This document shows, one piece after another, positions 3,004 through 21,911 of a DNA stretch of 42,948 nt. Each line of letters starts with the position of its first letter. Position 1 is the first letter of the stretch. Under the pieces are notes generated by a model. The model ran no database searches and was not told the origin of the DNA. It saw only the letters and a list, made by a program, of their open reading frames with translations. The translations under genes and the position numbers were made by a program. This DNA comes from an uncultured Acholeplasmataceae bacterium (GTDB lineage: Bacteria; Bacillota_I; Bacilli_A; Acholeplasmatales; Acholeplasmataceae), in NCBI GenBank assembly GCA_927441705.1, contig CAKMKH010000076.1, positions 1 to 42,948 of the forward strand. Direction: 5' to 3'.

Positions 3004-3519
3004 TTATGATAAATCGATCCAAAATCTTTGAATAATCTCATGATCTGTTACATCATAAACCTCGTTTTCTAATATACCACCATTTGCGATAATTGTTTTG
3101 GCTGAGGCTCTATTTGATTTATCGCAAACCATTAATACCCTATTTATACCTTTTTCTTTTGCTTTTTCTAAAGCTAATTTAAGCATGATTTTTGATAGTC
3201 CTTGACCTCTTTTAGAAGGTTTAATACCATAAGCGATGTGACCCCTGATTCTTAATAAGATATCATTTAGGTAATGTCTAATATTTACAAAACCTAAAAT
3301 TTCATTGTTTTCATCAATAAAAAAGTAATTTGAATCAGGAACATATCCACGAGGAAGATTAATATCATGTTCAGCCTGATAAAAATAATTTAATAATTCA
3401 TCATATTCCATTTCTTTTATATCTGAAGTTAATGGTGTCATGGATTGGTCTCCCCAATCTTTAACATAATCCAAGTATTTTTCTTTATATTCTTTTGTTG
3501 GTTTAATTAATTTATACAT
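3004..3519 (-). CDS. GNAT family N-acetyltransferase
   Basis: Counted from the preferred start, the protein is 171 residues. The acetyl-CoA pyrophosphate loop is visible as KRGQGLS (residues 103-109), after a strand YGI, and the C-terminal half carries the usual Asn and Gly-rich helices (NRASAKTIIANGG). It resembles the COG3981 group of predicted acetyltransferases, whose substrate is unknown. An upstream ATG at 3537 would add six residues, but a GAGGTG ribosome site lies between the two ATGs and correctly serves only the one at 3519. It is a single gene convergent with the MFS gene. Confidence 0.85.
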   Translation of the reverse strand: MYKLIKPTKEYKEKYLDYVKDWGDQSMTPLTSDIKEMEYDELLNYFYQAEHDINLPRGYVPDSNYFFIDENNEILGFVNIRHYLNDILLRIRGHIAYGIKPSKRGQGLSKIMLKLALEKAKEKGINRVLMVCDKSNRASAKTIIANGGILENEVYDVTDHEIIQRFWIDLS

Positions 3520-3651
3520 AAATACACCTCGTATCATCTATATTTATAATATCATTATTTGCCTTATAAAGCAAAGAAGTCAATAAAATTAATTTTCTAC
3601 CAATAAAAACTGAGTTTCATTCGTTTATATGGTGAAAGGTAGGTAATTAAG

Positions 3652-4761
3652 ATGAAAAAAATATTAGGAGTATTAGTATTAGGATTTACGTTATTAATGT
3701 TGGGAGCTTGTTCAGAGTTAAATACAGCTCAGTTTAGTTTAGATACAGATGAGGAAGTTTTATCATTTAGTGCAATTTCAACTTCTTCATTATTAATTAA
3801 TCAAATGGATGCAGATGCATTATTGTCGAATAATTCGAATAATGTTGAGTTAAGTAAAATATTTGGAACTGTGAATGAAACAGATCCAGTTGATGAAACA
3901 GATCCAGTCGAAGAAAAAGATGAATCAGTAGAAAATGCTGAAAAATTCTTAAGCTTAATTGAATTGTTTGCATCAGGTAAATCTGCACTTGAAGTAGGAA
4001 ATGAAGTTTCTGATGATGTACTATATGAACATAAATTAACATTTAGTACACTTGATATGTTAGGAGAAACAATCACTTATACATTATATTATAATGAAAC
4101 AATTATAATGGATGAAGAAGATGAAGTTGATGAAACAGAAGAAACTGATGAAGTAGACGAAATAGAAGAAACTGATGAAGTAGATGACCTTGAAGAATCT
4201 GAAGAAGATGACGAAAAAGAGTATTATATCGAAGGAAAATTAGTCTATGGTGATCAAACATTTGAAGTATATGGTGAAAAAGAAATAGAAGATGATGAAC
4301 AAGAAATCGAATTTACAGCTTATATGGATGAAAATAACTATGTTACATCTAGATATGAATTAGAAAATGATGAAACTAAATTCTATATTGAAGAAGTAAG
4401 AAATGGTTTGTTGTATTCAGAAACAGAAATCGAAATCGAAACTGAAGATGATGAAAGTAAAATTGAATTAATGTACATAATTGGTGAAGAAGAATATAAT
4501 TATGAGTTCAAATTCGAAACTGAAGATGGTATTCCAACGATTAAAGTTGAATATGATACTTATGTTGATGGCATAAGTGAAGATGGAGAAATGTTAGTTT
4601 ATATTATTGTTGATGAAGTAACTGGAGAAACTTCTTATCAAATCGCTGTAGATAGTGATAAAGATGGAGAAGAAGATCATAACTATACAAAAGATAGAGA
4701 TGATGACGACGAAGAAGATGAAGACGAAGAAGATGACGATGATTTTGAAGACGAAGAATAA
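3652..4761 (+). CDS. Acidic lipoprotein, paralogue of the anti-sigma outer domain
   Basis: The 369-residue product has a signal peptide ending in lipobox LGAC (Cys20), so it is surface-anchored. After about residue 35 it matches the extracytoplasmic part of the protein at 5380-6531 almost end to end. Shared blocks include EVLSFSAISTSSLL against EVVSFSAMSTTSLL, FTAYMDENNYVTSRY against FTAYIDDNNYVSSKY, and VYIIVDEVTGETSY against VYVIVDEITLETSY. It carries an extra internal Asp/Glu tract (about 150-190) with a nine-residue repeat. It ends, like its paralogue, in a DxDxDG-like loop followed by a poly-Asp/Glu tail (333-369). I know no family for it. Position next to the sigma/anti-sigma pair suggests a partner or decoy for the same signal. 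Confidence 0.85.
   Translation: MKKILGVLVLGFTLLMLGACSELNTAQFSLDTDEEVLSFSAISTSSLLINQMDADALLSNNSNNVELSKIFGTVNETDPVDETDPVEEKDESVENAEKFLSLIELFASGKSALEVGNEVSDDVLYEHKLTFSTLDMLGETITYTLYYNETIIMDEEDEVDETEETDEVDEIEETDEVDDLEESEEDDEKEYYIEGKLVYGDQTFEVYGEKEIEDDEQEIEFTAYMDENNYVTSRYELENDETKFYIEEVRNGLLYSETEIEIETEDDESKIELMYIIGEEEYNYEFKFETEDGIPTIKVEYDTYVDGISEDGEMLVYIIVDEVTGETSYQIAVDSDKDGEEDHNYTKDRDDDDEEDEDEEDDDDFEDEE
3875..3908 (+). repeat. In-frame 16-bp direct repeat in the lipoprotein gene
   Basis: The 16-mer ATGAAACAGATCCAGT occurs at 3875-3890 and 3893-3908, period 18 bases. It encodes the repeated residues ETDPVD / ETDPVE. Confidence 0.8.
4138..4184 (+). repeat. In-frame 20-bp direct repeat in the acidic tract
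   Basis: GAAGAAACTGATGAAGTAGA occurs exactly at 4138-4157 and again at 4165-4184, period 27 bases. It encodes a nine-residue repeat (EETDEVDEI, EETDEVDDL). The anti-sigma paralogue lacks this tract. Confidence 0.85.
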
Positions 4762-4795
4762 TTTTAAATTCGAAGTTATAATTTAAATAAAAAAA

Positions 4796-4851
4796 TTCTA
4801 TATATGTTAGAATATGGTAGAAGAGACATTACTCTTCTACCACTATAGAAT
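4796..4851 (+). promoter_or_regulatory. Stem-loop between lipoprotein and sigma factor genes
   Basis: A perfect ten-base-pair stem pairs GGTAGAAGAG (4816-4825) with CTCTTCTACC (4832-4841), loop ACATTA. Outer arms ATTCTATA (4796-4803) and TATAGAAT (4844-4851) can extend the pairing. No T run follows, so it is not a standard terminator. An extended -10-like TGTTAGAAT (4805-4813) lies just before the stem. The structure ends a few bases before the ribosome site of the sigma gene, so it could be an operator, a 5' stabilising hairpin or a translational control element. Confidence 0.6.
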
Positions 4852-4865
4852 TTGAGGTAATAGGC

Positions 4866-5378
4866 ATGATCATTAAGCAAAAATATATTGATAAATTAAT
4901 ACAAAAAGATGAAGAAGCATTTGAATATATTTATGCCCTAACTAAGAAAGGTGTTTATATTATCATCTATAATGTTGTTAAAGATCATAGTGTAGTTCAA
5001 GATGTCATGCAAGATGTTTACCTTAAGATGTTAAACTCTATGCATTTGTATAAAAAGAAAACTAACTTTTATAATTGGTTATTAATGATTGCGAAAAATC
5101 AAGCTATTGATTATTATCGAAAAGAGAAAAAAATAGTTCACATGGATGAAAATGATTTTCAAGAACAGTTTTCATCAAATGAAGAAAATCCAGATGAAAA
5201 AAATAGATTTGAAAGTTTATTAAGCGTTTTATCTGAAGATGAGAGACAAATCATATTATTAAAAATTGTTGATAATATGAAACATAAAGATATCGCATCA
5301 CTATTGGATATGCCTTTAGGAACAGTATTATGGATGTACCAAGAAGCACTTAAAAAAATGAAGGAAGTGAGGGAATAA
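4866..5378 (+). CDS. ECF-type RNA polymerase sigma factor
   Basis: The 170-residue protein has the two-domain ECF layout. Region 2 spans about residues 8-90, with the core-binding stretch DVMQDVYLKM (46-55) and NWLLMIAKNQAIDYYR (70-85). A linker follows, then region 4 at about 115-168 (LSEDERQIILLKI and the helix-turn-helix DIASLLDMPLGTVLWMYQEA). It should direct RNA polymerase to a small regulon. The recognition helix is unusual: GTVLWMY replaces the common GTVKSR. The gene is one base from the anti-sigma gene, the classic pairing, and follows the acidic lipoprotein. The ribosome site is GAGG at 4854. Confidence 0.9.
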   Translation: MIIKQKYIDKLIQKDEEAFEYIYALTKKGVYIIIYNVVKDHSVVQDVMQDVYLKMLNSMHLYKKKTNFYNWLLMIAKNQAIDYYRKEKKIVHMDENDFQEQFSSNEENPDEKNRFESLLSVLSEDERQIILLKIVDNMKHKDIASLLDMPLGTVLWMYQEALKKMKEVRE

Positions 5379-5379
5379 A

Positions 5380-6531
5380 ATGAGAAAAAAAGAAATAAAA
5401 AGAATAATTAAATCTGAGTTTGATCAGCATATTCCTGAACGCCTAGAAACTAGTGGTTTTGGATTGAGACAATCAATAAATCCAAGCACAAATAGAAGAC
5501 TTTCCTTGCAGTTTAAATATGGATTATCTTTAGCTAGTTTTATCATTATATTTATTGCTGCTGCAATGTTTTTATATGAACCAGCTAGTCAACAAGTACC
5601 AACTCAACCGTATACTTTTAAGGCAGATAACGAAGTTGTATCATTTAGTGCAATGTCAACTACTTCATTGTTATCTTATACAGAAAGTCAAAATTTACTA
5701 ACTCAAGTTACAAAACTTTCTATGACTCAAAGTCAAGCGAATAGTATTGTTGATTACGTTGAGCCATATCTCAAACTATCTGAAAGATTCTTATCTCAAG
5801 AAAATGGTTTTCTAATTACTGAACTTGAATCAGATTTGATAGAATATACAAATAAGACTGAATTCGAGACTGTTGACGCATTAGCTAATAGTATTAGATA
5901 TATAATGTATTATAATATAGTGAATCAAGAAATAGAAAATGAAGAAGAAACCTATGAAATGAAAGGTATTTTAATTCACGGTAATAAAACATATCAGTTT
6001 GATGGATCTAAAGAGATTGAAATAGATGAAGAAGTGTTTGAGTTTACTGCTTATATAGATGATAATAATTATGTATCTTCTAAATATAAAGTTGAAGAGG
6101 CAGAAACAAAATTTGAATTTAAAACTATTGTTAATGGAGTTTTAACTGAAGAATCAATTATAGAAATTGAAATTGAAAATGATGAAAAAGAAATCGTTCT
6201 TGAATTCATAAAAGATAATAATTTTGGCACTTATAAGTTTAAATATGAAACTAAAGATGGTATGACTATACTATCAATTGACTTTGATGTTGAAACTGAT
6301 GGCTTAGAACAAAAAGGTGAAATTGAAGTCTATGTTATTGTTGATGAAATCACTCTTGAAACGAGTTATAAATTAATCGTCGATACAGATGACGATGAAG
6401 TTTATGAATATAGAAGAGATCGTGATGACGATGATGATGACGAAGAAGACGAAGAAGACAGCGAAGATGAAGAAGACAGTGAAGATGAAGAAGATAGTGA
6501 AGATGAAGAAGATAAAGAAGACGATTTATAA
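5380..6531 (+). CDS. Membrane anti-sigma-like protein with acidic sensor domain
   Basis: The 383-residue protein has a short basic cytoplasmic N-terminus (1-46) without the zinc HxxxCxxC motif, then one membrane helix (about 47-67) and a large outer domain (about 75-333). It ends in a poly-Asp/Glu tail (334-383). Being directly downstream of an ECF sigma gene with one membrane span is the standard anti-sigma arrangement, so I infer that the N-terminus holds the sigma factor. The outer domain is homologous to the lipoprotein at 3652-4761 and matches no family I know. The tail is built of SEDEED repeats. A bidirectional terminator lies beyond. Confidence 0.75.
   Translation: MRKKEIKRIIKSEFDQHIPERLETSGFGLRQSINPSTNRRLSLQFKYGLSLASFIIIFIAAAMFLYEPASQQVPTQPYTFKADNEVVSFSAMSTTSLLSYTESQNLLTQVTKLSMTQSQANSIVDYVEPYLKLSERFLSQENGFLITELESDLIEYTNKTEFETVDALANSIRYIMYYNIVNQEIENEEETYEMKGILIHGNKTYQFDGSKEIEIDEEVFEFTAYIDDNNYVSSKYKVEEAETKFEFKTIVNGVLTEESIIEIEIENDEKEIVLEFIKDNNFGTYKFKYETKDGMTILSIDFDVETDGLEQKGEIEVYVIVDEITLETSYKLIVDTDDDEVYEYRRDRDDDDDDEEDEEDSEDEEDSEDEEDSEDEEDKEDDL
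6457..6510 (+). repeat. 18-bp tandem repeat encoding SEDEED units
   Basis: Three near-identical 18-base units begin at 6457, 6475 and 6493 (GAC/GAT AGC/AGT GAA GAT GAA GAA) and a partial fourth follows. Being a multiple of three, slippage would change tail length without a frameshift. Confidence 0.85.
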
Positions 6532-13560: not shown

Positions 13561-14007
13561 ATGACTATAAAAGAAATACAGAATATCATTAAAGAATTTG
13601 AATCATCAACTCTTATGAGTTTAGAACTTGAAACAAAAGATGTCAAAATTAAATTATCAAAACAAAAAAATGAATTTAATGAAAAACGTATCGAAGAACA
13701 ACCACAAAAACAAACGAAATCTAATTATATAAACGAACATGTTATCGAAGATAAAACCCATACCACAATAAAATCACCACTTGTTGGTACTTTTTATGCT
13801 GCTGGAACACCAGATCAAAAACCATTTGCTCAAGTTGGTCAAAAAGTTAAAAAAGGCCAAGTTGTTTGTATAATTGAAGCAATGAAAATCATGAATGAGA
13901 TTACATCTCCTGTATCTGGGGTCATTAAATCAATAGAAGTCAATAACAAGGACGTCATTGGATATGATCAAGTATTAATGACGATTGGTGATCTTGTTGA
14001 AAAATAA
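13561..14007 (+). CDS. accB: Biotin carboxyl carrier protein of acetyl-CoA carboxylase
   Basis: The 148-residue protein carries biotin between the carboxylase and carboxyltransferase halves of acetyl-CoA carboxylase. The biotinyl domain is the C-terminal 80 residues, with the acceptor K109 in EAMKIMNEI. The N-terminal part (1-60) is a charged helix and flexible linker, as usual. The thumb-like insertion typical of AccB is present (FYAAGTPDQKPFA, 78-90). It is the first gene of the fatty acid cluster and overlaps accC. The ribosome site before ATG 13561 is weak (GATGG). Confidence 0.93.
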   Translation: MTIKEIQNIIKEFESSTLMSLELETKDVKIKLSKQKNEFNEKRIEEQPQKQTKSNYINEHVIEDKTHTTIKSPLVGTFYAAGTPDQKPFAQVGQKVKKGQVVCIIEAMKIMNEITSPVSGVIKSIEVNNKDVIGYDQVLMTIGDLVEK

Positions 14008-15361
14008 ACTTTTAATTGCAAATCGTGGGGAAATTGCTGTTCGGATTATTCGTGCTGCAAAAGAGTTAGGTATTGAAACTGTAGCAATATACTCAAAAGC
14101 TGATCAAGATAGCCTACATGTCAAACTCGCTGATCAAGCTGTTTGTATAGGAGAAAATTCAAGTACTGATAGTTACCTTAATATCAACAGAGTTTTATCA
14201 GCAGCAATATCTACAGGATGTAATGCGATTCATCCAGGATATGGTTTTTTATCTGAAAATTCAGAATTTGTTGAAATGGTTGAAAGTTGTCAAATTAAAT
14301 TTGTTGGTCCTTCTTCAAAAACTATTGAGCTAATTGGTGATAAATCATCAGCAAGAACAATTGCTAAAAACAATCATGTACCAATTGTTGAAGGTAGTGA
14401 TGGTGTTGTTTTAGATGTTGAAGATGGACTAAAAATAGCTAAAAAAATTGGATATCCTGTCATGATAAAAGCTTCAAGTGGAGGCGGAGGTCGTGGCATT
14501 AGCATTGTGCGCTCTGACGATGAATTTATGAGTGCTTTTTCTCGTACAGCAATGGAAGCTTTGTCAAATTTTGGTGATGGGTCGCTATACATTGAAAAGT
14601 TCATTGAATCACCAAGACATATTGAAATTCAAATTATTGGGGATCATGAAGGAAATTATGTACATCTTTTTGAAAGAGATTGTTCAATGCAAAGAAGAAA
14701 TCAGAAGATGATTGAAGAAGCTCCGAGTCCTGTTTTAAACGAATTATTAAGAAGAAGAATGGGACAGACGGCACTTAAGTTGGCAAAAGCAATTCATTAT
14801 GTAAATGCTGGAACCATAGAATTTTTAATTGATGCTAAACAAAATTTTTATTTTATAGAAATGAACACAAGAATTCAAGTAGAACATCCAATTACAGAAA
14901 TGGTAACCGGCATAGATATCGTAAAAGAACAGCTAAGAATTGCTTATGGAAAAACTTTAAGTTTTAAACAAAGAGATTTAAAAATAAAAGGACATGCTAT
15001 CGAGTGCAGAATCAATGCAGAAAACCCATTAAAAAACTTTATGCCTACACCTGGACAAATAAAGAATGTTTTATTTCCTGGTGGGCCTGGAGTTAGGGTT
15101 GATACACATATTTACCCAGGCTATTATGTACCTCCTTTTTATGATTCATTATTAGCAAAACTTATTGTATATGCACCAACAAGATTAGAAGCTATTAAGA
15201 AAATGAGAGTCGCATTAGAACAGTTTGTTATTGAAGGCATTGATACTAATATTGAATATCAGTATTTAATCATGTATAACCCTGAATTCATCAAAGGTGT
15301 CTACGATACAGGATTTATTCAAAGATTTCACCTACTAGTGGAGGAAAAGAATAATGAATGA
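13997..15361 (+). CDS. accC: Biotin carboxylase subunit of acetyl-CoA carboxylase
   Basis: This ATP-grasp enzyme carboxylates the biotin on AccB using bicarbonate. Visible are the start KLLIANRGEIAVRI, the glycine-rich loop KASSGGGGRGISIV and the metal/catalytic segment EMNTRIQVEHPITEMVTG. From the chosen start it is 454 residues, the usual length. There is no ATG near the start: codons TTG 13985, GTG 13988, TTG 13994 and TTG 13997 are in frame. TTG 13997 gives MKNKLLIANRGE, matching the family, and sits six bases after GGTGA. The gene overlaps the end of accB by 11 bases and accD by 8. Confidence 0.94.
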   Translation: MKNKLLIANRGEIAVRIIRAAKELGIETVAIYSKADQDSLHVKLADQAVCIGENSSTDSYLNINRVLSAAISTGCNAIHPGYGFLSENSEFVEMVESCQIKFVGPSSKTIELIGDKSSARTIAKNNHVPIVEGSDGVVLDVEDGLKIAKKIGYPVMIKASSGGGGRGISIVRSDDEFMSAFSRTAMEALSNFGDGSLYIEKFIESPRHIEIQIIGDHEGNYVHLFERDCSMQRRNQKMIEEAPSPVLNELLRRRMGQTALKLAKAIHYVNAGTIEFLIDAKQNFYFIEMNTRIQVEHPITEMVTGIDIVKEQLRIAYGKTLSFKQRDLKIKGHAIECRINAENPLKNFMPTPGQIKNVLFPGGPGVRVDTHIYPGYYVPPFYDSLLAKLIVYAPTRLEAIKKMRVALEQFVIEGIDTNIEYQYLIMYNPEFIKGVYDTGFIQRFHLLVEEKNNE

Positions 15362-16241
15362 TTTTTTGGAACAAAGAAAAAAAAGATTAGAAGAATTTAA
15401 AAAAACAGTTCGCAAAAAAGAAGTCACTTATAAACCTATTGATATACCAGAAGGTTTGTTTATTAAATGTGAACAATGTGGAGCTGCTATATATGAAAAA
15501 ACACTACAAATCGGCCATTATATATGTCCTTTTTGTGATTTTCATTTTAGGATGAATGCGACAAGTCGTATTGAATTAATTGCAGATGAAGGATCATTTG
15601 AAAATTTATTTGATGACATAGAATCGTTAAATCCACTTGGAATTGAAAGTTATGAAAACAAAATAAATATTGGGAAAGCATTATCAAAACTTAATGAAGC
15701 TTTTTTATGTGGAACTAGTAAAATCGTAGGTATAAAAGTAGCGATTGGGGCATTGGATTCTACTTTTATGATGGGATCTATGGGTAGTGCTGTAGGTGAG
15801 AAAGTTACTCGATTAATTGAATATGCAACAAAACATAAGCTACCACTTGTGATTTTTTCAGCTTCTGGTGGTGCACGTATGCAAGAAGGCATTTATTCTT
15901 TAATGCAAATGGCTAAAACTTCAGCTGCACTTGTAAAACATGATGCTGAAAAATTGTTATATATAAGTGTTTTAACGAATCCAACAACTGGTGGAGTTGC
16001 AGCAAGTTTCGCTTCATTAGGTGATATTATGATTGCCGAAAAATCTTCTTTAATCGGTTTTGCTGGTGCTAGAGTTATTAAACAAACTATCAGACAAGAA
16101 TTGCCAGATGGTTTTCAAACTGATGCATTTCAATTAAGTCATGGACAAGTCGATATGATTGTACATAGAAGTGATATGAGAAAGACATTGTATAACCTTT
16201 TAAAACTGCACCAAAAGGATGGCCATGATGATGAAAAATAA
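15354..16241 (+). CDS. accD: Acetyl-CoA carboxylase carboxyltransferase, beta subunit
   Basis: The 295-residue subunit pairs with AccA to move the carboxyl group from biotin to acetyl-CoA, giving malonyl-CoA. It has the AccD zinc ribbon with C39, C42, C58 and C61, then the crotonase-like core with SASGGARMQEG and TNPTTGGVAASFA. GGAGG (15340-15344) precedes the ATG. It overlaps accC by 8 bases and accA downstream. Confidence 0.95.
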   Translation: MNDFLEQRKKRLEEFKKTVRKKEVTYKPIDIPEGLFIKCEQCGAAIYEKTLQIGHYICPFCDFHFRMNATSRIELIADEGSFENLFDDIESLNPLGIESYENKINIGKALSKLNEAFLCGTSKIVGIKVAIGALDSTFMMGSMGSAVGEKVTRLIEYATKHKLPLVIFSASGGARMQEGIYSLMQMAKTSAALVKHDAEKLLYISVLTNPTTGGVAASFASLGDIMIAEKSSLIGFAGARVIKQTIRQELPDGFQTDAFQLSHGQVDMIVHRSDMRKTLYNLLKLHQKDGHDDEK

Positions 16242-17049
16242 GACTGCTTGGGATATTGTAAAACTTGCAAGACATCCCAAGAGAATCACTTCAAGAACAC
16301 TTATTGATCACTTAGTGACAGACTTTATCGAACTTAAAGGTGATCGCTTATTTAGAGATGATCAATCAATAGTGGGAGGTATAGCTAAATTTAATGCAAT
16401 GCCAGTTACAATTATTGCTCAAGAAAAGGGTAAGGATACCAACGATAAAATTAAGCATAATTTTGGTATGCCACACCCTGAAGGATATAGGAAAGCGATA
16501 AGATTAATGAAACAAGCAGAAAAGTTTAACAGACCAATTATTTCTATTATTGATACACCTGGTGCTTATCCGGGAATTGAAGCAGAAGAAAGAGGACAAG
16601 CACGAGCAATTGCACAAAATTTATTTGATATGATGACAATATCAGTTCCGATAATTGTTATTGTTTTAAGTGAAGGTGGATCAGGTGGTGCTTTAGCGAT
16701 TGGTGTAGGTGATCGAATTTTAATGTTTGAAAATGCAATTTATTCTATTTTGTCACCTGAAGGATTCGCATCAATTTTATATAAAGATAGTTCAAAAGCT
16801 GAAGAAGCTGCAGAGATTATGAAGTTAACAGCAAAGGATTTATTATCGTTTCAAATCATTGATAAAGTAATTTTAGAAAAGGAAGGTCTTCATGAAGATC
16901 CAACATTTGGAGTAAATGAACTAAAAAAACAATTATCTAAACATTTAAATCAATTACTTAAATTAAATAAAAAAACATTACTTGAAAATAGATATCAAAA
17001 ATTCAGAAAGATTGGTGTTTATCAAGAAGAAGGAGTTAAACATGAATGA
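16228..17049 (+). CDS. accA: Acetyl-CoA carboxylase carboxyltransferase, alpha subunit
   Basis: The protein is the partner of AccD in forming malonyl-CoA. Family features seen are AWDIVKLARHPKRITS near the start, DRLFRDD, IDTPGAYPGIEAEERGQ and GGSGGALAIGVGD, followed by SPEGFASILYKD. Four in-frame ATGs lie at 16219, 16225, 16228 and 16231. The ribosome site AAAAGGATGG (16213-16222) best serves 16228 or 16231, so the outermost start is unlikely. The gene overlaps accD by 14 bases and fabH by 8. About 273 residues, shorter than the 315-320 of enterobacterial AccA but normal for Gram-positive relatives. Confidence 0.93.
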   Translation: MMKNKTAWDIVKLARHPKRITSRTLIDHLVTDFIELKGDRLFRDDQSIVGGIAKFNAMPVTIIAQEKGKDTNDKIKHNFGMPHPEGYRKAIRLMKQAEKFNRPIISIIDTPGAYPGIEAEERGQARAIAQNLFDMMTISVPIIVIVLSEGGSGGALAIGVGDRILMFENAIYSILSPEGFASILYKDSSKAEEAAEIMKLTAKDLLSFQIIDKVILEKEGLHEDPTFGVNELKKQLSKHLNQLLKLNKKTLLENRYQKFRKIGVYQEEGVKHE

Positions 17050-17974
17050 TACACTTATAAAGGTCATATCAAGCGGAAAATATATTCCAAAAGATATAAT
17101 TACTAACCAAGATTTAGAAAAAATAGTAGATACAAACCATGAATGGATTGTATCAAGAACAGGAATTGTAGAGCGCCATAAAGTAAAAGATGAATTGACA
17201 AGTGACATGGCTTATTTAGCTGCTATCGATGCGATAAATAAAGCAAATCATGATATTAACACTATAGATTTAATCATTGTTGCATCAATTACGGGTGACC
17301 AATTAACACCATCTACAGCTAATTTAGTTCAAAAGAAACTTGGTATCACACATGACTGTATGAGCTTTGACATCAACGCTGCATGCACAGGATTTGTGTA
17401 TGGTCTAGATATTGCATCACAAATGTTGCAATCCAGAAGATATAGATCAGCACTCATCATTGGTGCGGAAAGATTAACAACTGTCACTGATTATACAGAT
17501 AGAAATACATGTATCTTATTTGGTGATGGTGCTGGAGCACTCATCATAAAGCCAAGTGATGATCAAAAAGATCAAGCATTTTTTTATAATGCTGCAAAAG
17601 CTGATGATCTAGATTCATTAACTGTTGTAAAACATATAAAAATGGATGGAAGAAAAGTATTTTTATTCGCTGTTGATATCATGCAAAAAAGCATAGATAA
17701 AGTGCTAAATGATGCAAAATTAACAATAGATGATATCGACATGATTATTCCACATCAAGCAAATATAAGAATTATTCAGGCTGTTTCAAAAAGCATGAAT
17801 ATTCCAATAGATAAATTCTTAATTAATATCGAATCTTATGGTAATACTTCAGCTGCAAGTATTCCAATAACACTTGATGATTATTTTTTGATTGATAAAT
17901 ACAAAAATAAAAAAATAATTCTAGTCGGTTTTGGTGGAGGATTCACATGGGGTAGCGCTTTGCTGTCTTTATAG
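17042..17974 (+). CDS. fabH: Beta-ketoacyl-ACP synthase III
   Basis: FabH starts fatty acid chains by joining acetyl-CoA (or another short acyl-CoA) to malonyl-ACP. The 310-residue protein has the full Cys-His-Asn triad: C115 in NAACTGFVYG, H238 in IPHQANIR and N268 in SYGNTSAAS. A longer open frame begins at 16982, but AAGGAG at 17028-17033 directs the start to ATG 17042, where the family's usual N-terminus begins. It overlaps accA by 8 bases. The ordinary fabH length shows no truncation. Confidence 0.95.
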   Translation: MNDTLIKVISSGKYIPKDIITNQDLEKIVDTNHEWIVSRTGIVERHKVKDELTSDMAYLAAIDAINKANHDINTIDLIIVASITGDQLTPSTANLVQKKLGITHDCMSFDINAACTGFVYGLDIASQMLQSRRYRSALIIGAERLTTVTDYTDRNTCILFGDGAGALIIKPSDDQKDQAFFYNAAKADDLDSLTVVKHIKMDGRKVFLFAVDIMQKSIDKVLNDAKLTIDDIDMIIPHQANIRIIQAVSKSMNIPIDKFLINIESYGNTSAASIPITLDDYFLIDKYKNKKIILVGFGGGFTWGSALLSL

Positions 17975-18004
17975 AATAATACACTATTTAAGAAATCACA
18001 TAGA

Positions 18005-18052
18005 AAGGAGCAAAGATTTAACTTTATACAATTTAAATCTTTAACAACCAAG
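18005..18052 (+). promoter_or_regulatory. Distant Shine-Dalgarno with intervening hairpin before fabD
   Basis: The only good ribosome site before fabD is AAGGAG (18005-18010), 42 bases from the ATG at 18053, and no other start codon uses it. Between them lies a perfect ten-base-pair stem AAAGATTTAA (18012-18021) with TTAAATCTTT (18033-18042). Folding it leaves 11 bases between ribosome site and start. No T run follows, so it is not a terminator. Confidence 0.55.
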
Positions 18053-19003
18053 ATGAATAAGTTAGCAATTGTTTTTTCTGGCCAAGGTAGTCAATATTTA
18101 AATATGGGACTTGATTTTATTAATGCTTCTAAAGATTATCATAAAATGGCTAATGAAGCTTCTAAGATATTAGAGTTTGACGTTATAGAATCGCTACATT
18201 CAGAAGAAGCTATGAAAGAAACTAAATATACCCAACCCCTCATGGTTTTAAAAACAATATTAGGATTTGAAGAAATTAAAAAATTAAATCCTACTATAAG
18301 TGCAATTTCTGGGTTTAGTCTAGGCGAGTATAGTGCATATTATGCAGCTTCAGTGTTTAATTTTGAAGCAATAATGAATATAGTATCAAAAAGAGCATTA
18401 TACATGGATTTAGAAACTAAAAAAATACCAGGATTAATGGCTGCAGTTATAGGATTAGATAGGAATTCCATAGAGGAAGTTTGTCAGGCTTTATTAAAAG
18501 AGGGCACGATAGATATTGCAAATGAAAATGAACCTAATCAATATGTCATATCTGGTGAAGAAAAACTCATTTATAAAGCTATCGAGGCTCTAAAACAAAA
18601 AGGAGCAAGAAGGGTAGTTTTACTTTCAACAAGTGGTGCATTCCATACTGCTCTAATGAAAGAAGCAAGTGAAAAATTAGTCCGAGATATTAAAAATAAT
18701 GTTATACTAAAACCACAAGCTAGTCAAATTAAAATCTATATGAATATAGATGCTAAAATATTAAATGATGAAGATATCTTATTTCATATTGAAAATCAAA
18801 TGACACACCGTGTATTGTTTATAGATACGATTTTAAATATGAAAGCAGATGGCATAACTCATATTTTAGAAGTTGGCCCAGGTAGAGTTTTAACAAATTT
18901 AATTAGAAAAATAGATTCTAGTATCGAAACTATTAATTTCGATCAATTAGAATCATTTAATACTGTGAAAGGTTGGTTAGAAACATATGGATTTACAAAA
19001 TAG
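18053..19003 (+). CDS. fabD: Malonyl-CoA:ACP transacylase
   Basis: FabD loads malonyl groups from CoA onto acyl carrier protein. The 316-residue protein has FSGQGSQYLNMG (8-19), the nucleophile S89 in GFSLGEYSA and the catalytic H198 in SGAFHTALM. No upstream in-frame ATG, GTG or TTG exists back to the ribosome site at 18005, so ATG 18053 is the only sensible start despite poor spacing. It overlaps fabG by 17 bases. Confidence 0.94.
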   Translation: MNKLAIVFSGQGSQYLNMGLDFINASKDYHKMANEASKILEFDVIESLHSEEAMKETKYTQPLMVLKTILGFEEIKKLNPTISAISGFSLGEYSAYYAASVFNFEAIMNIVSKRALYMDLETKKIPGLMAAVIGLDRNSIEEVCQALLKEGTIDIANENEPNQYVISGEEKLIYKAIEALKQKGARRVVLLSTSGAFHTALMKEASEKLVRDIKNNVILKPQASQIKIYMNIDAKILNDEDILFHIENQMTHRVLFIDTILNMKADGITHILEVGPGRVLTNLIRKIDSSIETINFDQLESFNTVKGWLETYGFTK

Positions 19004-19730
19004 AGTTATTATTGTTACAGGTGGAGCTTCAGGTATAGGTAGAACTATATCACTAACTTTAGCTAAACATCAAGCAATAGTTGTTATTAATTATAGAAGT
19101 AGTGAACAAAAAGCAAAAGCTTTAGTCGAAGAAATTGAAAAATTAGGATCTAAAGCATTGGCGGTTAAAGCTGATATTTCTAAGTTTGATGAGGCTAAGT
19201 TTTTAGTGGATGAAACAATCAATCAATTTGGAAGATTAGATGGCCTAGTTAACAATGCTGGCATCACAGATGATCAACTTATTTTAAGAATGCAAGAAAG
19301 TCAGTTTGATAATGTAATGGATACTAATTTAAAAGGTGCATGGAATATGGCAAAACATAGTGCTAAATATCTTTTGAAATCACCTTTTGGAAGAGTTGTA
19401 AATATCTCAAGTGTTATCGGACTTACAGGAAATGTTGGACAAACAAACTATAGTGCTTCTAAAGCGGGACTAATTGGATTAACAAAAGCTTTAGCTCGAG
19501 AGTTTTCAACACGTGGAGTTTGTGTTAACGCTGTATGCCCTGGATTTATCAAAACTGAAATGACTGAAAAGTTAGATCCGAAATTTGTTGAAGCTTATCT
19601 TGAAAAAATACCACTTAGACGTTTAGGAGATCCAACTGATGTTGGAAATCTAGTATTATTCTTACTAAGTGATTTATCAAGCTACATAACAGGACAAGTT
19701 TTAGTAGTTGATGGCGGGTTGGTGATGTAG
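18987..19730 (+). CDS. fabG: 3-oxoacyl-ACP reductase
   Basis: This short-chain dehydrogenase reduces 3-oxoacyl-ACP with NADPH. The 247-residue protein has the cofactor motif TGGASGIG (11-18), NNAG (89-92) and the catalytic S142, Y155 and K159 (NYSASK). The C-terminal TGQVLVVDGGLVM is typical. It overlaps fabD and is directly followed by fabF with no gap. Context in the cluster makes FabG far more likely than another SDR. Confidence 0.94.
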   Translation: MDLQNRVIIVTGGASGIGRTISLTLAKHQAIVVINYRSSEQKAKALVEEIEKLGSKALAVKADISKFDEAKFLVDETINQFGRLDGLVNNAGITDDQLILRMQESQFDNVMDTNLKGAWNMAKHSAKYLLKSPFGRVVNISSVIGLTGNVGQTNYSASKAGLIGLTKALAREFSTRGVCVNAVCPGFIKTEMTEKLDPKFVEAYLEKIPLRRLGDPTDVGNLVLFLLSDLSSYITGQVLVVDGGLVM

Positions 19731-20972
19731 ATGGATAAAAGAAGAGTAGTAATCACAGGCATGGGGTTAGTTTCACCAGTTGGAAATGATGTTGAGTCCT
19801 CATTTAAAGCTTTAGTTGAAGGGAAAAACGGCATTGATTTTATCACATTAAGTGATGCTACAAACTGGAAAGTAAAAATTGCTGGTGAAGTTAAAAACTT
19901 AAATTTTGAAGACTATATAGAAAAAAAAGAAATTAAAAGGGCAGATCGTGTAACAAACTTAGGATTAGTTGCTGCTGAGCAAGCGTTTAATCAATCAAAA
20001 ATAGACCTAGATGATATAGATCCTTATAGATTTGGAACATTTGTTGGTAGTGGCATTGGTGGATTAACGACTATATTTGAAGAAGTTAAAACATCTGTTA
20101 CTAGAGGACAAGATAGAATTTCTCCATTTTTTATTCCGAATTCAATTATCAATATGGTTGGTGCAAAAATAGGAATAAAATATAAAGCAAAAGGTCCAAA
20201 CCTTCCAATGGTTACTGCATGTTCTGCAGCAACCAATTCAATTGGAGAAGCTTTTAGATACATTAGAGATGGTTATTTAGATCTTGCATTTGCAGGAGGT
20301 TCAGAAGCTCCAATTAATGAAATTGGCGTAGGTGGATTTGCAAGTTTAAAGGCTTTAGATTTTTCTAATAATCCAGAGTATGCATCAAGACCATTTGATC
20401 TATCTAGAACAGGATTTGTCATTGCTGAAGGTGCGGGTGTTTTGATGCTTGAAAGTTTTGAGCATGCGACAAATAGAGGTGCCGAAATTATAGCTGAAGT
20501 TGTTGGTTATGGTACAACAGCTGATGCTTTTCATATGACTGCTCCAGATGATGAAGCAAATGGAATTACTAAATGTATCCAATTAGCATTAGAAGATGCT
20601 AAGATCAAACCAGAACAATTAGGTTATATTAATGCACATGGGACTTCTACAGTTTTAAATGATAAATTAGAAACTTTAGGCATAAAAAAAGCTTTAGGTG
20701 ATCATGCTTATAACATTCAAATTAGTTCAACAAAATCGATGACTGGACATGCTTTAGGTGCTGCTGGCGCGATAGAATCTATTTCTGTGATTAAATCAAT
20801 TATCACATCTTTAATTCCACCGACTATTCATCTAAACACGATAGATCCTGAATGCGATTTAAACTATACACCAAATCACTTTGTTAAAAAAGATTTAGAA
20901 TACGGAATGAATATTAATATTGGCTTTGGTGGACAAAATGCAGCTGTTATATTTAAGAAGGTAAGTTTATGA
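19731..20972 (+). CDS. fabF: Beta-ketoacyl-ACP synthase II
   Basis: FabF elongates acyl-ACP with malonyl-ACP. The 413-residue protein has the nucleophile C164 in VTACSAATNS and the two histidines in NAHGTST and MTGHALGAAG. The signature GFGGQN is near the end. It starts directly after the fabG stop codon and overlaps fabZ by four bases. Being the only elongating synthase here, it probably handles all chain lengths, though another could lie outside. Confidence 0.95.
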   Translation: MDKRRVVITGMGLVSPVGNDVESSFKALVEGKNGIDFITLSDATNWKVKIAGEVKNLNFEDYIEKKEIKRADRVTNLGLVAAEQAFNQSKIDLDDIDPYRFGTFVGSGIGGLTTIFEEVKTSVTRGQDRISPFFIPNSIINMVGAKIGIKYKAKGPNLPMVTACSAATNSIGEAFRYIRDGYLDLAFAGGSEAPINEIGVGGFASLKALDFSNNPEYASRPFDLSRTGFVIAEGAGVLMLESFEHATNRGAEIIAEVVGYGTTADAFHMTAPDDEANGITKCIQLALEDAKIKPEQLGYINAHGTSTVLNDKLETLGIKKALGDHAYNIQISSTKSMTGHALGAAGAIESISVIKSIITSLIPPTIHLNTIDPECDLNYTPNHFVKKDLEYGMNINIGFGGQNAAVIFKKVSL

Positions 20973-21400
20973 AATTAACACAAGAACAAATTAAAGAAAT
21001 TATTCCTCATCGTGATCCATTTTTATTTTTAGATGAGATTACAGAGTTAGAAACATTGAAATATGCTGTAGGAACAAAATATATGCATGAAGATGAATTT
21101 TACTTTAAAGGTCATTTTCCAGGTAAACCGGTTGTTCCTGGTGTGATTTTAGTTGAAACCATTGCTCAAGTCGGTGCTGTAGTTTTACTATCTGATAAAA
21201 AATATAGAGGAAAAATAGCCTATTTTACCGGTATAAAAAATGCAAAATTTAGAAAAAGTGTTCTACCAGGAGATACCGTTACTTTTAAATGTGAGTTAAC
21301 AAAAATAAGAGGTGTTTTTGGATTTGGAAAAGGAGAAGCTTTTGTGGGAGATGATTTAGTGTTAGAAGTTGAAATTTCCTTTGCTGTTGGAAATGAATAA
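20969..21400 (+). CDS. fabZ: 3-hydroxyacyl-ACP dehydratase
   Basis: This hotdog-fold enzyme removes water from 3-hydroxyacyl-ACP. The 143-residue protein shows IIPHRDPFLFLDEI (11-24) and the active-site H49 in FKGHFPGKPVVPG, with E63 in LVETIAQ. There is no FabA, so the sequence gives no sign of anaerobic unsaturated fatty acid synthesis. It overlaps birA by 8 bases. Confidence 0.95.
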   Translation: MKLTQEQIKEIIPHRDPFLFLDEITELETLKYAVGTKYMHEDEFYFKGHFPGKPVVPGVILVETIAQVGAVVLLSDKKYRGKIAYFTGIKNAKFRKSVLPGDTVTFKCELTKIRGVFGFGKGEAFVGDDLVLEVEISFAVGNE

Positions 21401-21911
21401 TTATACAATATTAACATTTGATGAAATATCATCAACTAGCGATTTATTAAAAGAGCATTATAGCTCTTTTTCTAATTTTACAATCATTAAAGCTAACTAT
21501 CAAAGTGAAGGTAGAGGTCAGTTTGATCGTAAATGGATTTCTAATCAAGGGGAGAATCTACTTTTTAGTATTTTATTAAAAGATTTAAATATAAAAAATC
21601 TAGAATTTCTAAAAAAATGGATTATAGAAGGATTATTTAAGTTATTAAAATCATATAATATGCAACCTATATTTAAAGAACCAAATGATATATATATCAA
21701 TGAAGACAAAATATGTGGTATTTTATTTGAAACAAGAACACTAAACGACTTGTTAGAGTATGTGGTTATTGGTATTGGACTGAATATTAATCAAACTGAT
21801 TTTAATGGTATAAAGGCAACATCAATTAAAAAAATAAATAATTATATTGTAGATAAAGATGAAGTTTTTGAAAAATTACTTGAAATCTTATTAAGTTCAT
21901 ATAAAACATAA
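21393..21911 (+). CDS. birA: Biotin--[acetyl-CoA carboxylase] ligase
   Basis: The enzyme attaches biotin to AccB. The 172-residue protein contains only the catalytic domain: SSTSDLLKE (13-21), the biotinyl-AMP loop EGRGQF (39-44), KEPNDI (95-100; usually KWPNDI) and GIGLN (127-131). The N-terminal DNA-binding domain of bifunctional BirA is absent, so it should not be a repressor. The open frame extends back to 21369 but the family's N-terminus and the overlap with the fabZ stop favour ATG 21393. Its place at the end of the acc-fab run links cofactor loading to enzyme synthesis. Confidence 0.9.
   Translation: MNNYTILTFDEISSTSDLLKEHYSSFSNFTIIKANYQSEGRGQFDRKWISNQGENLLFSILLKDLNIKNLEFLKKWIIEGLFKLLKSYNMQPIFKEPNDIYINEDKICGILFETRTLNDLLEYVVIGIGLNINQTDFNGIKATSIKKINNYIVDKDEVFEKLLEILLSSYKT

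Follow-up and report, generated by a model that had tools for sequence, protein, structure and literature searches.

A lipoprotein and a putative anti-sigma factor share an outer domain

Why would a lipoprotein and the putative anti-sigma factor encoded beside the same ECF sigma factor be built on one and the same outer domain? The question is raised by a locus at positions 3652-6531 of the window, by which we mean the whole 42,948-nucleotide stretch of DNA from an uncultured Acholeplasmataceae bacterium analyzed here. As given in the preliminary description, three open reading frames follow one another on the plus strand: a lipoprotein gene (3652-4761, 369 aa), an ECF sigma factor gene (4866-5378, 170 aa), and a gene for a putative anti-sigma factor (5380-6531, 383 aa), whose products we call L, S, and A. 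L has a signal peptide with the lipobox LGAC, a sensor-like domain at approximately residues 32-335, and an acidic tail. S contains only sigma-70 regions 2 and 4, as expected of an ECF sigma factor of ~170-200 aa, with Pfam matches to Sigma70_r2 (PF04542, E=1.3e-12) and Sigma70_r4_2 (PF08281, E=6.9e-11) and a TIGR02937 match above the cut-off; because no equivalog cut-off was reached, it was placed in no named ECF subgroup. A consists of a cytoplasmic segment (~1-48), one TM helix (~49-66), an outer domain homologous to L (~82-336), and an acidic tail. An adjacent sigma gene, a single TM helix, and a cytoplasmic N terminus are the features of membrane-bound ECF anti-sigma factors and, together with the sigma-70 regions of S, they support the ECF/anti-sigma architecture first proposed for the locus. 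Pfam and NCBIfam gave no anti-sigma family match for the N terminus of A; the zinc-type (ZAS) domain zf-HC2 had no Pfam match in A, and residues 1-48 contain no His/Cys motif. A comparison with plasmids gave no match. Elsewhere in the window, at 13561-21911, lies an apparent fatty-acid synthesis cluster (acc-/fab-like genes and biotin ligase), judged from translations only.

L aligns with the outer part of A at 33% identity and 55% positives (E=1e-41 with composition-adjusted statistics). This homology had been suggested before, and the domain starts quoted for it, EVLSFSAISTSSLL and EVVSFSAMSTTSLL, are present; one detail needs correction, in that L carries an extra acidic insert of ~30 residues (about 152-188) that A lacks. 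The alignment spans nearly the whole outer part and stops before the acidic tails and is therefore no low-complexity artefact. The D/E-rich tails of both proteins could hint at a chance or low-complexity similarity of two acidic proteins, but this reading has next to no probability: it is refuted by the composition-adjusted E value, by the tail-free alignment, and by a tail-less profile that finds both genes across the class.

The outer domain belonged to no Pfam or NCBIfam family in L and A, nor in any of 38 relatives scanned individually, and its profile gave only an insignificant match against the PDB. On this point the preliminary description stands. Structure models of L and A were of low confidence (pLDDT 54.5 and 55.3, respectively) and depict a helix followed by ~13 antiparallel strands; Foldseek searches of these low-confidence models against the PDB returned nothing at E<=0.001. 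The domains are uniformly acidic, with a mean net charge per 100 residues of -18 for L and -12 for A. Conservation is 46% identity for L versus 32-40% for the copy in A, and L, being at least as conserved, is thus no decaying by-product. Within genomes, L-A identity slightly exceeds that across genomes in three of four segments (p<=6e-4; excess about 3.5 points), and no such co-similarity was found in the N-terminal segment, 82-130. An AU test marginally rejected one single lipoprotein clade (p=0.034), which is too weak to claim gene conversion or repeated exchange over one old duplication. Taken together, the within-genome excess and the AU result could reflect either co-adaptation or gene conversion.

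The three genes travel together across a bacterial class

With A as query, matches were found in 39 of the 88 genomes of the family; a genus with many genomes of 0.3-0.9 Mb, presumably phytoplasmas, had no match in this search. The order L-S-A was intact in the loci read from 18 further genomes of the window's clade. For order- and class-wide searches we used a profile (A1) built from the outer domain without the acidic tails. Within the order, 71 of 160 genomes and 19 of 28 genera gave a match; in a class-wide sample of 395 genomes, mostly drafts, the domain was present in 110, and in 53 of 192 genera. Gene orders were taken from a uniform re-annotation of 77 loci. L-S-A was present in 31; two further loci resemble it, one having a duplicate L and the other an A below the profile threshold. 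S-A-L was present in 11; in another locus L occurs twice, and in two more the third gene is an exported copy whose lipobox is atypical or absent. In 17 loci S and A were followed by an RsgI_M lipoprotein, in 5 S and A stood alone, and in 8 L stood alone. Among the five S-A loci, two have a divergent lipoprotein where RsgI_M would stand, one runs to the end of its contig, and in another L is encoded elsewhere in the genome. Almost all loci read have an exported partner beside S and A. In complete loci the A gene directly follows or overlaps the sigma gene, and homologs of A have a short cytoplasmic N terminus and one TM helix. The profile searches and the 77 loci confirm, order- and class-wide, that homologs of the lipoprotein, sigma, and anti-sigma genes co-occur in other genomes.

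The domain also occurs away from such modules. In genomes of family f12, same-domain lipoproteins (L135-L138) have neither an adjacent sigma or anti-sigma gene nor an ECF-type site, which implies an effector role of their own; one genome of this family, G216, has four domain matches. A further orphan same-domain lipoprotein (L096, 3722-4717 in G000:C15; L097, 4644-5639 in G024; L124, 2453-3448 in G452) lies close to transposase-like ORFs, likewise without an ECF site. The three genomes concerned, of which one belongs to another family, share 1.4-1.6 kb of DNA here at 100% identity, which may reflect either recent transfer or shared contamination. The sole locus from a related-locus search of genome contigs (L033) was a false positive inside a phosphoglucomutase-like gene.

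A conserved ECF-type promoter is predicted before the lipoprotein gene

The predicted promoter of L lies on the plus strand at 3600-3627 and consists of a -35-like element, CCAATAAAA (3600-3608), a 13-bp spacer, and a -10-like CGTTTA (3622-3627). Near L, the consensus across relatives is CCAAYAAAA-N13-CGTTTA (or TTGTATA). In all 20 clade-1 loci compared, the 150 bases upstream of L contain CCAAYAAAA, 13-14 bp, and CGTTTATATAGTG, with small variants, immediately ahead of the ribosome-binding site. The window has one match to the pattern, at L, with 0.01 expected by chance; genomes of the genus carry the exact pattern about once each, and it stands at L in the four that have the module. Two extra exact matches (one in G022 and a second in G000, on C77) were rejected as targets, both being inside genes. 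A strict pattern sought within 120 bp upstream of the genes in the loci read was found at 32 of 39 same-domain lipoproteins and 15 of 17 RsgI_M proteins, as opposed to 0 of 418 other genes. It was also found at 1 of the 23 remaining lipoproteins, itself the lipoprotein of a sigma/anti-sigma module, and most genes missed by the strict pattern show a variant by eye.

The -10 elements also vary together. In families where the sigma gene has its own such site, its -10 matches that of its own lipoprotein at 81%, versus 66% for shuffled pairs (n=25), with a p value of 1e-4 that is indicative only because related genomes are not independent. In L103, TGTCTTATTA stands at both the sigma gene and the lipoprotein, and in L104/L105 the two genes, though unlinked, share one type of site. 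In L130 (4956-7081) each of two tandem lipoprotein copies before the sigma gene has its own ECF-type site. In genomes with both modules, that of the window included, the -10 is of the CGT type at clade-1 and of the TGT type at clade-2 lipoproteins. Recognition by S of a two-part promoter with a CGT/TGT-type -10 is predicted by comparison, from the conserved sites and the -10 co-variation. L is very probably the main target of S, since the site is found at L-type genes as opposed to 0 of 418 others, occurs about once per genome, and co-varies in its -10. The earlier suggestion of feedback was premised on control of the L gene by the sigma factor, and the conserved promoter just upstream of L backs that premise. 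In a genome search for further targets allowing two mismatches, the motif was no commoner than its reversed control, and we therefore claim no regulon beyond the lipoprotein for the S of the window; weaker targets may have escaped a near-exact motif search in a draft genome that is 97% complete.

Between the L and S genes lies a hairpin with an 11-bp perfect stem and a 6-base loop (4815-4842, plus strand), just downstream of a vegetative-type -10, TAGAAT (4808-4813, plus strand). A TATAAT-like hexamer just 5' of the hairpin was seen in most of 17 loci, and in most clade-1 loci a stem directly follows such a hexamer; it measures 9 to 20 bp and keeps its position, while its sequence differs between genomes. 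The hexamer probably belongs to a vegetative promoter for basal S and A, with the stem as a leader hairpin or possible attenuator that may in addition reduce transcription running through from the L promoter.

A second ECF module in the same genome

The genome of the window encodes a second ECF module (L083, G000:C60:87000-97000), in which the sigma gene (3229-3750) is followed by that of an anti-sigma factor with a diverged copy of the domain (3743-4819) and then by an RsgI_M lipoprotein gene (4889-5974). ECF-type sites stand before the sigma gene (3186) and before the lipoprotein gene (4837). The lipoprotein carries RsgI_M (PF23750, E=6e-27) with a DINPSVEL motif, the only place in this genome where the domain was found. 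The presence of RsgI_M on a free lipoprotein instead of an anti-sigma factor seems unusual.

Discussion

To our knowledge, work on Mollicutes rarely takes up ECF sigma factors. We propose that the locus is a self-limiting ECF module in which A holds S, S makes L, and L removes the signal of A through the shared domain, a reading to which we give about an even chance. S would be held at the membrane by the short cytoplasmic N terminus of A, as gene order and topology suggest. The outer domain of A would detect an envelope ligand or stress, A would be removed, probably through regulated intramembrane proteolysis (an M50 site-2 protease gene is present in the genome), and S would be set free. S would then transcribe mainly the L gene from CCAAYAAAA-N13-CGT/TGT promoters, a step with strong comparative support, and in the S-A-L arrangement it would also transcribe its own operon from the same promoter type. 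L, exposing this domain on the same side of the membrane and presumably more abundant than A, would bind the ligand of A and neutralize or handle it, so that the signal would disappear in a negative feedback. The ligand is most likely shared by L and A. Decoy, co-receptor, and homotypic partner of the sensor, the roles first suggested for L, are candidate roles. We prefer a shared ligand to direct L-A pairing for four reasons: some same-domain lipoproteins stand alone with no sigma gene beside them, L is no less conserved than the copy in A, all domain copies are acidic, and RsiV offers a worked precedent (PMC5014341). Since the domain is so acidic, one may speculate that its ligand is positively charged, for instance a cationic peptide, a basic protein, or a metal ion. 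Two observations count against the self-limiting model: the unrelated RsgI_M partner in 17 loci, which implies that the sensor is compatible with other targets, and the absence of L/A co-similarity in segment 82-130.

The main rival, itself on the unlikely side, is that L binds the outer domain of A directly and keeps A intact, such that consumption or mislocalization of L leads to cleavage of A and S restores L. Both proteins carry the same domain, the sole main target of S is L, and the protection of RseA by RseB is a non-homologous precedent (PMC8103513). The within-genome excess of L-A identity is compatible with the co-adaptation that such binding might bring, but it is small and could be explained by gene conversion or shared composition; moreover, two such strongly acidic domains might need cations to pair directly, and the RsgI_M partners of clade 2 are not homologous to A. 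We regard as unlikely the fully closed version of this circuit, in which A measures free L by homotypic contact and an ECF sigma factor for essentially one gene sets the level of L; if true, such a circuit would have arisen through duplication of a single, undescribed domain and persisted across a bacterial class. Less probable is that L is an ordinary envelope-stress effector under S, with a generic domain whose two copies are functionally unlinked. The replacement of L by RsgI_M lipoproteins would suit this reading, as would the lipoprotein target encoded in the same gene order in mpt83-sigK-rskA (PMC7509140), but an L-type partner is kept across many families of the class, and if the domain had been co-opted as a generic module, its repeated pairing on both sides would not be expected. 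That A is no anti-sigma factor and instead a second surface effector, with S controlled otherwise, we hold to be highly improbable; the lack of an anti-sigma family match for the N terminus of A speaks for it, but the position of the A gene directly behind the sigma gene and the topology of its homologs are the standard ECF arrangement.

Several parts of the proposed self-limiting module have precedents. The closest arrangement is mpt83-sigK-rskA of Mycobacterium and Yersinia, where a sigma site lies upstream of the lipoprotein gene and the lipoprotein is a principal target, while a resemblance of MPT83 to the outer domain of RskA is not described in the part available (PMC7509140). The order of lipid-anchored protein, ECF sigma, and anti-sigma genes and the site before the lipoprotein, here predicted by conservation, are shared with the window module, whereas promoter and taxa differ. 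MPT83 carries a FAS1 domain, and Pfam gave no RskA or FAS1 match in the window module. RseB binds the periplasmic domain of RseA and is not known to be a copy of it, unlike L and A, which are homologous in the window module. The likeness of RpoE-RseA-RseB lies in an extracytoplasmic protein encoded with the sigma factor that modulates the anti-sigma factor (PMC8103513). In SigV-RsiV of Bacillus and Clostridioides, the outer domain of the anti-sigma factor senses a ligand, lysozyme, and RsiV, overproduced under its sigma factor, is held to bind, inhibit, and so neutralize it (PMC5014341). There the anti-sigma factor itself is the sponge, whereas the window module has a separate lipoprotein copy; the RsiV-family domains DUF4163/DUF3298 were not found on A or the relatives scanned, and the structural relatives of RsiV found in that study are not near ECF genes (PMC5014341). 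In Clostridium thermocellum, anti-sigma-I factors have CBM3/GH10 outer domains and their sigma factors regulate CBM3/GH10 proteins, so that in SigI-RsgI (C. thermocellum, Bacillus) the type of outer domain is shared with some regulon products (PMC4711584). RsgI_M itself stands on the sister-module lipoprotein; however, sigma-I is no ECF sigma factor, its targets there are secreted enzymes, and Pfam found neither the RsgI N-terminal domain nor RsgI_M on the A of the window.

The statement in the preliminary description that no described family has this arrangement was therefore too strong as to gene order and sigma site, both known from mpt83-sigK-rskA (PMC7509140), while a lipoprotein that copies the sensor domain of the anti-sigma factor appears to be undescribed. 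In the open-access literature, whose silence is no proof of novelty, the available descriptions of mpt83-sigK-rskA and sigma-I/RsgI each lack the combination of this order with a shared domain. In the accessible passages of papers on A. laidlawii and A. oculi the module is not mentioned, and a promoter-mapping study that includes A. laidlawii does not use the term ECF. The parts have precedents in mpt83-sigK-rskA, RsiV, and RsgI; the combination, the domain, and its breadth look new.

The same outer domain on the target lipoprotein and on the sensor suggests a self-limiting circuit made from one duplicated domain. The module supplies a promoter sequence ready for use, one main target by prediction, and two copies of a domain, in sensor and target, that lend themselves to direct comparison; it would also make a clean test case for an anti-sigma factor switched off by its own output in wall-less cells. 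It also appears to define a so far undescribed exported domain spread across a class and, in wall-less Acholeplasma-related bacteria and many relatives, what appears to be a switch that acts mainly on one surface lipoprotein.
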